Notes under the pieces: model-generated
Told to the model about the DNA's origin: nothing
The model's database searches: none
Seen by the model: the letters and a program-made list of their open reading frames with translations, nothing else
Shown here: positions 41,035 through 45,972 of the stretch, piece after piece
How the letters are laid out: every line of letters starts with the position of its first letter
How positions within the stretch are numbered: the stretch's first letter is position 1
Origin: Roseicyclus mahoneyensis
GTDB lineage: Bacteria > Pseudomonadota > Alphaproteobacteria > Rhodobacterales > Rhodobacteraceae
DNA: 64,000 nt
Assembly: GCF_003148775.1 (NCBI RefSeq)
Contig: NZ_QGGW01000004.1
Coordinates: forward strand, 62,001-126,000
Direction of reading: 5' to 3'
Made by a program: the position numbers and the translations under genes

Positions 41035-41138
41035 GGGCGAAACCCTTCGGGCGGCTGTATGGTCTGTTGCCCTGCGTTTTGCCCGATGTGGCGCAGGGCG
41101 TCCAGTGCCATGGGGTCGCGCGGGATGACGGGCGGAGG

Positions 41139-41191
41139 CGAGGGGGGCTGTCTGCCCCCCTCGACCCCCCGAGGATATTTTTGAAACGAAG
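41139..41191 (-). repeat. Dispersed intergenic repeat, copy B (NDUFA12/metY divergent gap)
   Basis: Inverted relative to copy A: a perfect 10-bp hairpin CGAGGGGGGC-TGTCT-GCCCCCCTCG (41139-41163), then CCCCCCGAGGATATTTTTG and AAACGAAG. Reverse-complemented, the core CAAAAATATCCTCGGGGGG equals that of copy A. It sits in the middle of the 323-bp gap between NDUFA12 and the sulfhydrylase gene. Nothing else in that gap was recognised; no SAM-II, SAM-V or SAM/SAH riboswitch consensus is evident before the sulfhydrylase. Confidence 0.72.
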
Positions 41192-41357
41192 AAGGGAAGA
41201 ACACCACGACCCGGTGTCGGACATGGGCAGGATGCGCGTCATCGGGACTTTGCGTGCGGCGAACGGGCGACCTTTCCGGCATGCCGCAGATTGCCCGGCG
41301 GGTCGGGTTTGCCTAATGCTGCGCCAAAGACCGGCTTTCACGGAGAGAGAGACAGAC

Positions 41358-42650
41358 ATGACCGACGCACCATCCTATGGCTTTGACACGCTGCAGATCC
41401 ATGCAGGCGCCCGGCCCGACCCCGCGACGGGCGCGCGGCAGACGCCGATCTACCAGACCACCGCCTATGTGTTCCGCGACGCAGAACATGCCGCCGCCCT
41501 CTTCAACCTGCAGGAGGTCGGCTACATCTATTCGCGCCTGACCAATCCGACCGTGGCAGTGTTGCAAGAACGCATCGCCACGCTGGAGGGCGGCGTGGGA
41601 GCCGTTTGCTGTTCCTCGGGCCATGCAGCACAGATCATGGCGCTGTTCCCGCTGATGGCACCGGGGCGCAACATCGTGGTCTCTACGCGGCTTTACGGCG
41701 GGACGGTCACGCAGTTCTCGCAGACCATCAAGCGCTTCGGCTGGTCGGCCAAGTTCGTCGATTTCGATGATCTCGACGCCGTGGCCGCGGCCATCGACGA
41801 GGACACCCGCGCGGTGTTTGGCGAGGCCATCGCCAACCCCGGCGGCTACATCATGGATGTGCGCGCCATCGCAGATATCGCCGATGCGGCGGGCATCCCG
41901 CTCATCATCGACAACACCACCGCCACCCCCTACCTGTGCCGCCCGATCGAGCATGGCGCGACGCTGGTGGTACATTCGACCACCAAATATCTCACCGGCA
42001 ACGGCACGGTCACCGGAGGCGCGGTCGTCGATTCGGGGCGCTTCGACTGGTCGGCCAGCGACAAGTTCCCGTCCCTTTCGGCGCCAGAACCCGCCTATCA
42101 TGGGTTGAAGTTCCACGAGACCTTCGGACCTTTGGCCTTCACTTTCCACGGCATCGCTATCGGGCTGCGCGATCTGGGCATGACGCTGAACCCGCAGGCC
42201 GCCCATTACACGCTGATGGGGATCGAGACGCTGTCCTTGCGGATGGAGCGTCATGTGCAGAACGCGGTCACCATCGCCAAATGGCTGGAGGCCGATCCAC
42301 GCGTCGATTTCGTGACCTATGCGGGGCTGGAAAGCTCGCCTTATTTCGCACGGGCCAAGACCGTCTGCCCCAAGGGCGCGGGTGCGCTGTTCACCTTTGC
42401 GGTCAAGGGCGGCTACGCGGCCTGCGTCAAGCTGGTCGATTCGCTGCAGATCTTCAGCCATGTGGCCAATCTGGGCGACACGCGCAGCCTGATCATCCAC
42501 TCGGCTTCGACCACGCACCGGCAATTGACCCCGGAACAGCAGGTGGCGGCCGGCGCCGCCCCCAATGTCGTACGCCTGTCGATCGGAATCGAGGATGCGG
42601 CCGACCTGATTGCCGATCTCGATCAGGCATTGGCAAAAGCGGTCGGCTGA
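41358..42650 (+). CDS. O-acetylhomoserine aminocarboxypropyltransferase / sulfhydrylase
   Basis: PLP enzyme of the Cys/Met metabolism family that makes homocysteine from O-acetylhomoserine and sulfide in methionine synthesis. 430 residues. GFDTLQIHAGARPDPATGARQTPIYQTTAYVF is the typical MetY start; SRLTNPT binds phosphate; HSTTKYLTGNG holds the PLP lysine; NLGDTRSLIIHSASTTH is the family C-terminal motif. The start at ATG 41358 follows GGAGAGAG. It has its own strong terminator. Exact substrate (O-acetyl versus O-succinyl) is inferred from family only. Confidence 0.94.
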   Translation: MTDAPSYGFDTLQIHAGARPDPATGARQTPIYQTTAYVFRDAEHAAALFNLQEVGYIYSRLTNPTVAVLQERIATLEGGVGAVCCSSGHAAQIMALFPLMAPGRNIVVSTRLYGGTVTQFSQTIKRFGWSAKFVDFDDLDAVAAAIDEDTRAVFGEAIANPGGYIMDVRAIADIADAAGIPLIIDNTTATPYLCRPIEHGATLVVHSTTKYLTGNGTVTGGAVVDSGRFDWSASDKFPSLSAPEPAYHGLKFHETFGPLAFTFHGIAIGLRDLGMTLNPQAAHYTLMGIETLSLRMERHVQNAVTIAKWLEADPRVDFVTYAGLESSPYFARAKTVCPKGAGALFTFAVKGGYAACVKLVDSLQIFSHVANLGDTRSLIIHSASTTHRQLTPEQQVAAGAAPNVVRLSIGIEDAADLIADLDQALAKAVG

Positions 42651-42858: not shown

Positions 42859-45800
42859 GTGACTGTCGAATTCGCGCTGTTTGTATCGCCGGAAGGCATC
42901 GCGCTGGCCCATCGCCAGCCCAAGGGCCATTGGGCGCTGGTCGCAGAGGCGCGGCTGGATACCGATGACCTCGAGGCCGCGATGGCCGGTCTGAAATCCA
43001 CTGCTGCGGACCGCGGTGGGGCGGAGGCGCCCGTGCTGCTGGTCCTGCCTGATGATCAGGTGCTCTATACCTCCTTCCTGGCGCCCGCGGACGATGCCGA
43101 TCTTGTCGCGGACAGGATCGTCGAAGGTCTGGACGGCATGACGCCCTATGCCGTGGCCGACCTCGTCTACGATTGGCGCAAGGTCGAGGAAGACCGGATC
43201 AAGGTCGCGGTCGTGGCCCGCGAAACCCTGGGCGAGGCGACGGAGTTCGTGGCGGCCCATGGCTTCAAGCCGGTTGGCTTTGCGGCCATGCCCCCGGCCG
43301 AACGGTTTCCCGGCATGCCGCTGTTCGGGCCGGAAAGCAGCGCTCTGGGGCTTGACCGCGGCGGGCTGGCCTTTGGCGGCGACGATTGGATCGCGCCCGC
43401 CCCCGAAACGTCGGAGATGCCGGCTACTCCCGCTAAGACCGAGGCGGAAGATGTCACGGAACTACAGCCGCCGGCGGAACACCTGCACGCAGAGCCTGCG
43501 GACGCCCCGACATCCGACATGGCCCCCGAGCCGCCGCCCCCGGTGCCGGTGGATCTGTTCGAAGCGGCGGGCAACCCGGCTGAAGCGGTGGTGGCGACTG
43601 CCGAAGTGGTGCAGCAGCCCGATGATGCTGCCAGTGACCCGAAGACCGTCGAAGCCGATGGTCCTGCAGGGTTCGACGCCCCCGTCGCGATCTCCGATCC
43701 GACGCTGGAGCAGCCGGTCGCGCCCCTGTCGGACGCCGATAGGCCCTGGCCCGAGCAAGAAACCAGCTTGGAGGAACCGCCCGAGACGATCTGGCCATGG
43801 GATTTCGACCCGGAGCCGTCCGGCGATCTGACGCCCCAGACACCAGAGGCGGCACCTGCCCCAAACCCCGTTGACGATCTTCCAGATGACATACCGCCGA
43901 TGCCGACGGCAACGCGCGGGCGGGTGGCAGGCCCGTCGACGCGGCCGCTGACCGCATCCAAACCAGAAGAGGTCGCCGGGCGGGGGATCGACCCGACCGC
44001 CGGACTGTCGGCCACGGAGCTGCGCGGAGACGGCACGGAAACCGACAGTCCAGATGACGCAACCCCCACGCTCGGCTTTGCCGCGCGGCGGGGCAAGGCC
44101 CCTAAAGCCACCTCGGGCGACATCGTGTCGACGCGCCAATCCCGGCTTGGCTTCGGCACCCCATCCGACGCGACCGGCGGCCCGGTGCTGCACCCGGACG
44201 CGGCGCCCGTCAGACCGGCCCCCGCCACGACGCCGGCGCGCCCCGGCACCTTGTTGGCGGCACAGCTGGCGCGTGTTAGGGATGCCAGCAAGACAAAGCC
44301 GCAACCGGCCGTTGCGCCGCCTCCGCGCGGGGGCACGGCCCTTGACCCCCTGACCGAAGGTCCGACCCGGGCCGAGCCCGAAAGCACCGCGTCCGCCGTC
44401 CCCGCCAAGGATGCCCAGACGGCCGGGCGCGGCGGCTACGGCTTCGCGCGCCGCCGAAAATCCGAGGCGGCCCCCGCCCCGTCGACAGGTTCCGTCGCCA
44501 GTGGCCAGAATGCCTTTGCCAGCGGCTTGCTGGCGCGCAAACCCGCAGAGGCTTCGGGCCCGTCCTTTCGCATGGGGCTGATCCTGACGTTGGTCCTGCT
44601 GGTCTTGCTGGCACTGATCGCGATCTGGTCTGCCATGTTCCTGCCCGACAGCCCGATCGCGCGGTTGTTCAGCTCCGGATCGAACAGCGAGGCCAGTCAA
44701 CGGGCCGACAGCCCCGCGCCGCCTCTGGCGATCAGTGCGCCGCCCACAATTGGTGCGCTGGATCCGGAAAGCGCCGTGTCGGAGGCCGTCTCGGACGCGC
44801 CCATCATCGACAGCGAGACAGCCGTCCTGCCCGTTCCCGAGACCGACGGGCCCGAGACGGATGAAACATCGCCCGAACAGATCGCCCAAGCGCCGCTCCC
44901 GGATATCGATGCCGAGCTTGATCTGCCCCCCCTGCCGCCTTTGCCCGAAGAGCTGCTGCCGTCGCTCGAGGAGACCGAGCGCATCTATGCCGAAGACGGC
45001 ATCTGGCCGCGCCCGCCCGATCTGCCGGTTCTTGGCGCGCTCAGCAGCGCCAATGACATCTACGTCGCCTCCATCGACCCCGAGGTGCCTATCACCGATG
45101 CCATCGCGCTGTCCGATCCGCAGCTGGATCCGAGCGAGGTGCTGAGACGGGTGCCGCCTCCGCCGCCTTTCGGTGCCACGCCGGACCGCACCGCGCTTGG
45201 GCTCATCGCTCCGACGCCCGAAGGCGTGCTGACCCCCGAGGGGGCTTTTGTCGTTCTGGGGCGGCCCCCTGTGGCTGCCATCCCGCGCCCGCGCGAGATC
45301 GCGCCTGCCGTTGAGGCGGTGCCGCAAGAGGATGTCGAGGATGCGGTCCTCGGCACCTTCCAGCCATCACCGCGCCCGGCCGATCTGGACGAAACGCGCG
45401 AGCGACAGGTGTTGGGCGGCTTTTCCGCGACTGAGCTGGCCGGTTTGCGCCCCGATCCCCGTCCCGTCTCGGCGCAGGAGGCGGCGGCGCAAGCCTCGCT
45501 CTTTCCTCAAGCTGCAACGGATGCAGCACCTGCCACCGAGCCCGAGCCGGAAATAGAAACCGAAACCGCGGCGCCCGCCGCCGTGATCGAGGCCACGCCT
45601 CTGGCCGTTGCCGCGTCGCGCCTGCCTGCTGCGCGGCCCGCCAATATCGACGCGCTTGTGGCTGCCGCCGCCGAAACACCCGGCCCGGCCGTCGCCACCG
45701 AAGCCATCGCCCGCGCACCCTCCATTCCGTCCAGCGCCGATGTCACCCGGGCGGCGACCGAGCGCAACGCGATCCGCCTGCGCGATGTCAATCTGATCGG

Positions 45801-45972
45801 CGTGACCGGCACGCCCAACGACCGGCGCGCGCTTGTGCGTCTGCCGTCGGGCCGGTTCGTGCGGGTGGGCGTGGGCGACCGTCTGGATGGCGGCCGTGTC
45901 GCCGCCATTGGCGAGACCTCGCTGCAATACGTGCGAAACGGCCGCAATGTGACGCTGGAAATCCCGGGCTGA
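42859..45972 (+). CDS. Large bitopic protein with PilM/GspL-like N-terminus and PilP/GspC-like C-terminus
   Basis: 1037 residues, GTG start. Residues 1-165 read MTVEFALFVSPEGIALAHRQ, then alternating strands and helices with LLVLPDDQVLYTSFLAP and DRIKVAVVARETLGEA, resembling the actin-like cytoplasmic domain of GspL/PilM. Residues about 166-565 are Pro/Ala/Asp-rich and probably disordered. One helix follows at 572-595 (MGLILTLVLLVLLALIAIW). The periplasmic part is again Pro-rich until a compact C-terminal domain (970-1037) with VNLIGVTGTPNDRRALVRL and RVGVGDRLDGGRVAAIG, a GspC/PilP-type HR domain. No other secretion or pilus genes are nearby. It is a single-gene unit; function unknown. Confidence 0.85.
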   Translation: MTVEFALFVSPEGIALAHRQPKGHWALVAEARLDTDDLEAAMAGLKSTAADRGGAEAPVLLVLPDDQVLYTSFLAPADDADLVADRIVEGLDGMTPYAVADLVYDWRKVEEDRIKVAVVARETLGEATEFVAAHGFKPVGFAAMPPAERFPGMPLFGPESSALGLDRGGLAFGGDDWIAPAPETSEMPATPAKTEAEDVTELQPPAEHLHAEPADAPTSDMAPEPPPPVPVDLFEAAGNPAEAVVATAEVVQQPDDAASDPKTVEADGPAGFDAPVAISDPTLEQPVAPLSDADRPWPEQETSLEEPPETIWPWDFDPEPSGDLTPQTPEAAPAPNPVDDLPDDIPPMPTATRGRVAGPSTRPLTASKPEEVAGRGIDPTAGLSATELRGDGTETDSPDDATPTLGFAARRGKAPKATSGDIVSTRQSRLGFGTPSDATGGPVLHPDAAPVRPAPATTPARPGTLLAAQLARVRDASKTKPQPAVAPPPRGGTALDPLTEGPTRAEPESTASAVPAKDAQTAGRGGYGFARRRKSEAAPAPSTGSVASGQNAFASGLLARKPAEASGPSFRMGLILTLVLLVLLALIAIWSAMFLPDSPIARLFSSGSNSEASQRADSPAPPLAISAPPTIGALDPESAVSEAVSDAPIIDSETAVLPVPETDGPETDETSPEQIAQAPLPDIDAELDLPPLPPLPEELLPSLEETERIYAEDGIWPRPPDLPVLGALSSANDIYVASIDPEVPITDAIALSDPQLDPSEVLRRVPPPPPFGATPDRTALGLIAPTPEGVLTPEGAFVVLGRPPVAAIPRPREIAPAVEAVPQEDVEDAVLGTFQPSPRPADLDETRERQVLGGFSATELAGLRPDPRPVSAQEAAAQASLFPQAATDAAPATEPEPEIETETAAPAAVIEATPLAVAASRLPAARPANIDALVAAAAETPGPAVATEAIARAPSIPSSADVTRAATERNAIRLRDVNLIGVTGTPNDRRALVRLPSGRFVRVGVGDRLDGGRVAAIGETSLQYVRNGRNVTLEIPG

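Follow-up and report, generated by a model that had tools for sequence, protein, structure and literature searches.

How does a bacterium come to carry on one chain the two ends of a secretion platform, and what would such a protein bind where the secretion system itself is not found? In type II secretion systems (T2SS) and type IV pili, several proteins link the motor side to the secretin. The window analyzed here, a 64,000-nucleotide stretch of Roseicyclus mahoneyensis DNA (contig NZ_QGGW01000004.1, positions 62,001 to 126,000), holds one open reading frame (ORF) that raises this question. Located at 42859-45972 on the plus strand, with a GTG start, it encodes a protein of 1037 amino acids (aa) with a GspL-type head, one transmembrane (TM) helix, a tail of ~380 residues, and a C-terminus of the GspC/PilP HR type. 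This single chain is found throughout the family Rhodobacteraceae and is kept without a T2SS. We lean toward reading it as a trans-envelope tether that derives from a T2SS and has been repurposed in this family, not as an obligate component of secretion.

A first-pass annotation of the window had described one 1037-aa protein with a single membrane helix (572-595) between two long Pro/Ala-rich stretches. All of this was borne out: the single reading frame is conserved in relatives, hydropathy gives one TM helix at 572-590, and linkers 166-571 and 596-955 consist of 16 to 17% Pro and 17 to 18% Ala. Among 73 proteins, hydropathy counts exactly one TM helix in 69; 3 have two and 1 has none. The linker preceding the helix is likely cytoplasmic, judging from the homology of the N-terminal domain and a charge that is on average positive immediately ahead of the helix. 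The terminal domains are real, but their limits are better placed at 1-160 and 975-1037 than at the earlier 1-165 and 970-1037 (Table 1).

What are the two ends? The first-pass annotation had likened them, by eye, to GspL/PilM and to the GspC/PilP HR domain; profile and structure comparisons agree on both, and no unrelated fold took their place. Residues 1-160 are modeled with confidence as a GspL/PilM cytoplasmic domain (pLDDT 91), and the fold lists for residues 1-170 place GspL cytoplasmic domains and PilM on top, followed by FtsA. The N-domain profile recovers the genuine GspL of a T2SS operon (genome G268), and its hhalign probability with the GspL set is 98.3%. Chance resemblance was rejected, with 29 other neighbor families (some of them antisense shadow frames) reaching at most 1.4% against the same profile. 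When the comparison is reversed, the focal gene is the one host match to the G268 GspL, albeit a weak one (E = 7.7e-4). Thirty columns of the N-domain alignment are invariant or nearly so. Pfam gives no match for the window N-domain alone; across 73 N-domain members it reports PilM_2 in 9 (best E = 0.0045), T2SSL in 3 (best E = 0.015), and 13 further families in one or two members each, among which DUF7158 has a better E value (0.0028). A PDB sequence search with the N-domain profile returned nothing relevant.

Residues 975-1037 likewise yield a confident model of a GspC/PilP HR domain. For residues 936-1037, GspC-HR and PilP head the fold lists, and sequence profiles agree. A Pfam scan of the whole window protein at E values up to 1 yields only PilP and no periplasmic PilN/GspL_C ferredoxin-like domain, whereas the same library gives PilN at E = 1.4e-12 for the GspL of G268. 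The window copy stays below curated cutoffs (PilP, 16.6 versus 25.6 bits; pilP_fam, 25.3 versus 34.65 bits), and the C-domain profile, run against the PDB, returns five rows headed by PilP, PilP, and GspC at E values of only 0.15 to 0.23. Unrelated families also match the C-domain, including Ribosomal_L2_C in 24 and type_III_yscD in 32 of 69 members. Thirty-six C-domain columns are invariant or nearly so, some of them fixed by selection of the loci with a pattern in that domain. Short stand-alone relatives of the HR domain were also seen in 10 loci chosen for a second C-domain match (L071:9458-9706 and like ORFs in L072-L080), one of which matches Pfam PilP at 0.0045. By eye they have neither a TM helix nor a signal peptide, and their flanking genes are presumably purF and an SDR; a cytoplasmic protein with an HR fold would be unexpected.

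The window protein thus resembles GspL in the fold and sequence profile of residues 1-160 and in having a single TM helix that follows in the same chain. It differs in having no match to a PilN-type periplasmic domain, in the ~410-residue linker before the helix, and in a host without T2SS: no GspG match, no T2SS gene among nine neighbors, and a sole secretin of the Tad type. It shares the HR domain with GspC and PilP but joins it to a GspL-type head, in a host whose only secretin has no N0-type Pfam match. To our knowledge, the HR protein OutB has no GspL-type head. In the Dickeya GspB/OutB, a C-terminal extension is reported to cross-link to peptidoglycan (PMC9239104), whereas the HR domain of the window protein is the very C-terminus. 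Published work describes the GspL cytoplasmic domain as dimerizing with itself and binding GspE (PMC3815138), and the secretin N0 domain as bound by the HR domain of GspC (PMC3169554) and likewise by that of OutB (PMC9239104).

How widely is this architecture distributed? We surveyed 101 relatives, 61 within Rhodobacteraceae and 40 outside. The full-length protein matches 57 of the 101, every one inside the family. The N-domain is matched in 56 of the 61 family genomes, once in each, and in none of the 40 outside; the C-domain is matched in 56 of the 61 and in two outside (G064 and G098). Combined, one domain or the other is found in 59 family genomes, and the two in which neither was matched (G008 and G045) are 73 to 74% complete. 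Among the best 80 of 453 confirmed loci, found by a pattern in the C-domain, the domains are fused in 72, and contig edges cut the other 8, so that all 72 untruncated loci are fused. Profile A4 represents 68 of these 80 loci, and profiles A1 and A2 represent 34 and 36 loci besides the window.

Could the gene be a functionless, decaying relic of a lost T2SS? Its linkers evolve fast, and split or partial forms occur. In G026 the two domains are adjacent, slightly overlapping ORFs at the usual place (L066:8360-9843), reflecting either fission or the state before fusion; G027 has the HR domain alone, preceded by a signal-like N-terminus and three PRPRP repeats (L069:9051-9722); and G041 has a short ORF with only the C-domain. 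However, the frame remains open over 589 to 1797 aa in all 72 fused loci, and the (nearly) invariant columns of both domains, allowing for those C-domain columns fixed by selection, speak against decay, making a relic very improbable. In G044 the two domains are encoded by overlapping ORFs that differ in frame (L065:5396-8519), so that the linker there has either undergone a frameshift or been misread in sequencing.

Which secretion machinery accompanies the protein? GspG, the T2SS marker, gave no match in the host and was found in 7 of the 61 family genomes, although as the only T2SS marker it may miss systems, since G004, G010, and G036 have secretins (frames of 663 to 809 aa) and no GspG match. 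The T2SS stretches of G013 and G043 contain a short, weakly matching GspC-like ORF (E = 0.017 and 0.027), and these systems may have their own GspC-like protein. The single secretin match in the host has T2SS-T3SS_pil_N, BON, and Secretin domains in Pfam; from its neighbors, read by eye, we take it to be of the Tad CpaC/RcpA type. A search for the N0 domain (STN) found none in the 61 genomes, a weak test, as it also found none in the 7 genomes with GspG. For the host CpaF, Pfam returns nothing beyond T2SSE and a weak DEAD hit, and no GspE-type N-domain.

Secretin searches over all 61 family genomes gave no match in G006, G033, G042, G045, and G057, and T2SSE, the secretion ATPase, searched in 21 of the 61, was not matched in G006, G035, G042, G045, and G057. 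Genome G057, a single contig that is 100% complete, has no match to secretin, T2SSE, GspG, the CpaC N-terminal domain (CpaC-N), or STN, and it retains an intact fusion of 681 aa with both domains, a TM-like stretch, and two strict copies of the Arg-Pro motif described below. Of the two options that annotation had offered, a platform component or a repurposed envelope protein, the second fits better, because the gene is intact in a genome where neither a secretin nor a secretion ATPase was found. Searches of the host for the customary partners gave no GspG, no GspE-type N-domain in CpaF, and no N0-type domain in its only secretin, and G057 has no secretin match at all, so the docking partners are probably other than a secretion machine.

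The chief rival assigns the protein to the Tad (type IVc) pilus as an accessory that would substitute for GspC and GspL in bridging the membranes, with the head touching CpaE/CpaF and the HR domain reaching CpaC. CpaB and CpaI, which are encoded with Tad, would resemble the window protein in a proposed trans-envelope bridging role: CpaI of Caulobacter has been proposed to bridge the secretin to the inner membrane, and many Tad systems have no clear CpaI, leaving room for such a protein (PMC13170226). The Tad type of the host's only secretin is in line with this, as are the Tad marker (CpaC-N) in 53 of the 61 family genomes and a certain enrichment of non-intact genes where that marker is missing. 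However, the host Tad cluster is on contig C8 and the fusion gene on contig C4, neither in nor beside the Tad locus; the host CpaC shows nothing beyond the three domains listed above; and outside the family the marker occurs in 17 of 40 genomes but the N-domain in none. Moreover, the fusion is not confined to genomes with Tad, being intact in G057 and G001, neither of which has a CpaC-N match. We regard a Tad accessory as possible but rather doubtful. G001 and G026, both lacking the Tad marker, are not machinery-free: in each, a single contig holds a PilP-like ORF together with a secretion ATPase and a divergent secretin, perhaps, as a guess, a type IVb pilus cluster. The PilP-like ORFs, at L171:6709-7611 and L172:11170-12273, lie near the divergent secretin. 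Beside the host Tad cluster lies coding sequence that is repeated and includes a run of N (L162:13300-13900).

Several points weigh against a repurposed tether. The reading rests on computation, and all partners are putative. G057 is the sole genome in which the fusion is proven intact and all markers are lacking; they are lacking in G042 as well, but there the ORF runs off the contig before a C-domain appears. Searches for T2SSE are fallible, as G035 has a secretin and CpaC-N yet no T2SSE match; because the G035 ATPase was likely missed by search or assembly, the absence of the ATPase in G057 is soft, and the argument from G057 is carried by the secretin result. The prevalence of the Tad marker leaves a Tad role possible in most species. 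Among decidable genomes, non-intact genes are more frequent in those without the marker (2 of 5) than in those with it (2 of 43; P = 0.049 by Fisher's test, uncorrected for kinship; P = 0.025 with G044 counted as intact), in a comparison sorted by eye that dropped 13 of the 61 genomes as undecidable (gene absent, located at a contig edge, or split between contigs) and counted as Tad minus G006, which is only 78% complete. Finally, the GspL of G268 has no match in the other three family genomes of the same sample.

How might a repurposed tether work? In the cytoplasm, the head would dock one partner. The tether, which is disordered and carries repeated Arg-Pro motifs, would thread the peptidoglycan and may bind it, and the HR domain would pair strands with a partner in the periplasm or outer membrane, in the way that such domains capture secretin N0. 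The module would then serve envelope organization. Conserved islands lie in the periplasmic tether at about 706-720, 736-750, 766-805, 826-870, and 916-930. The window protein has four loose RP-x2-hydrophobic motifs (at 718, 810, 839, and 926) and no strict copy. The strict motif, [RK]P-x(0,2)-RP-x2-hydrophobic, recurs 131 times in the periplasmic linkers of 73 proteins, compared to 1.3 copies in shuffles and 1 in cytoplasmic linkers, and 63 of the 73 have at least one; this count is inflated by common descent, with 92 copies remaining in 52 less similar proteins. The same motifs would suit a cell division or polarity scaffold, in which the actin-like N-domain, like FtsA, acts as a membrane hub and the periplasmic part meets peptidoglycan or Tol. 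Such a scaffold would also accord with near-universality in the family, a single N-domain match per genome, a conserved place, and the FtsA entries that follow GspL/PilM in the fold lists; we consider it improbable.

Where did the fusion come from? Among 29 alphaproteobacterial gspL loci, fetched on GspL alone, 21 have a C-domain-like ORF 325 to 608 bases downstream on the same strand (profile A1, E < 0.01), and two more have one at E < 0.5 with this profile; these E values refer to a small ORF set, and matches with profile A4 are weaker. This linkage indicates that the two halves of the fusion are near neighbors in alphaproteobacterial T2SS loci. In G268, the only locus whose gap was scanned, gspM lies between them. 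We infer an origin in a gspL-gspM-gspC-like set of alphaproteobacteria, with GspM and the periplasmic part of GspL lost on the way to the fusion.

The first-pass annotation had found no other secretion gene nearby; this holds in Pfam for nine neighboring ORFs at 38.7 to 51.3 kb. Of 41 loci compared, 36 have a metY homologue upstream, on the same strand in 35, and 18 have a downstream gene that reads by eye as KefB-like; as a guide to function, the neighborhood was set aside. Neighbor names such as KefB, purF, SDR, and surE are our assumptions from sequence appearance.

Table 1. Features of the fusion gene and its conserved upstream neighbor (window coordinates)
Feature	Position	Strand	Remarks
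metY-like pyridoxal phosphate enzyme gene (Cys_Met_Meta_PP)	41067..42650	+	Pfam; conserved upstream neighbor
GspL/PilM-type cytoplasmic domain	42859..43338	+	Residues 1-160
Cytoplasmic Pro/Ala-rich linker, poorly conserved	43339..44571	+	Residues 161-571; composition and column conservation
Single transmembrane helix	44572..44628	+	Residues 572-590; Kyte-Doolittle peak 2.94
Periplasmic Pro/Ala-rich tether	44629..45780	+	Residues 591-974; conserved islands and loose RP-x2-hydrophobic motifs
GspC/PilP HR-type six-stranded beta domain	45781..45969	+	Residues 975-1037

Our searches of PMC turned up no paper on this fusion, a scope that leaves out most subscription journals and PMC12507015 (which contains "PilP" and "Rhodobacterales"), and the available portions of one survey devoted to type IV filaments as a superfamily do not mention it (PMC6668835). 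The window protein carries both ends on one chain, and nearly all sampled genomes of a family mostly without the T2SS marker have kept it. A bolder form of the repurposed tether, which we put forward tentatively, is that the family domesticated the inner-membrane platform of a lost T2SS as a secretion-independent housekeeping tether, whose GspL head and GspC tip would serve new partners and whose Arg-Pro motifs would dock a periplasmic structure. The protein offers a single-gene, possibly secretion-free setting for asking what a GspL head and an HR domain bind and transmit, and it may reveal an unrecognized envelope system in Rhodobacteraceae.
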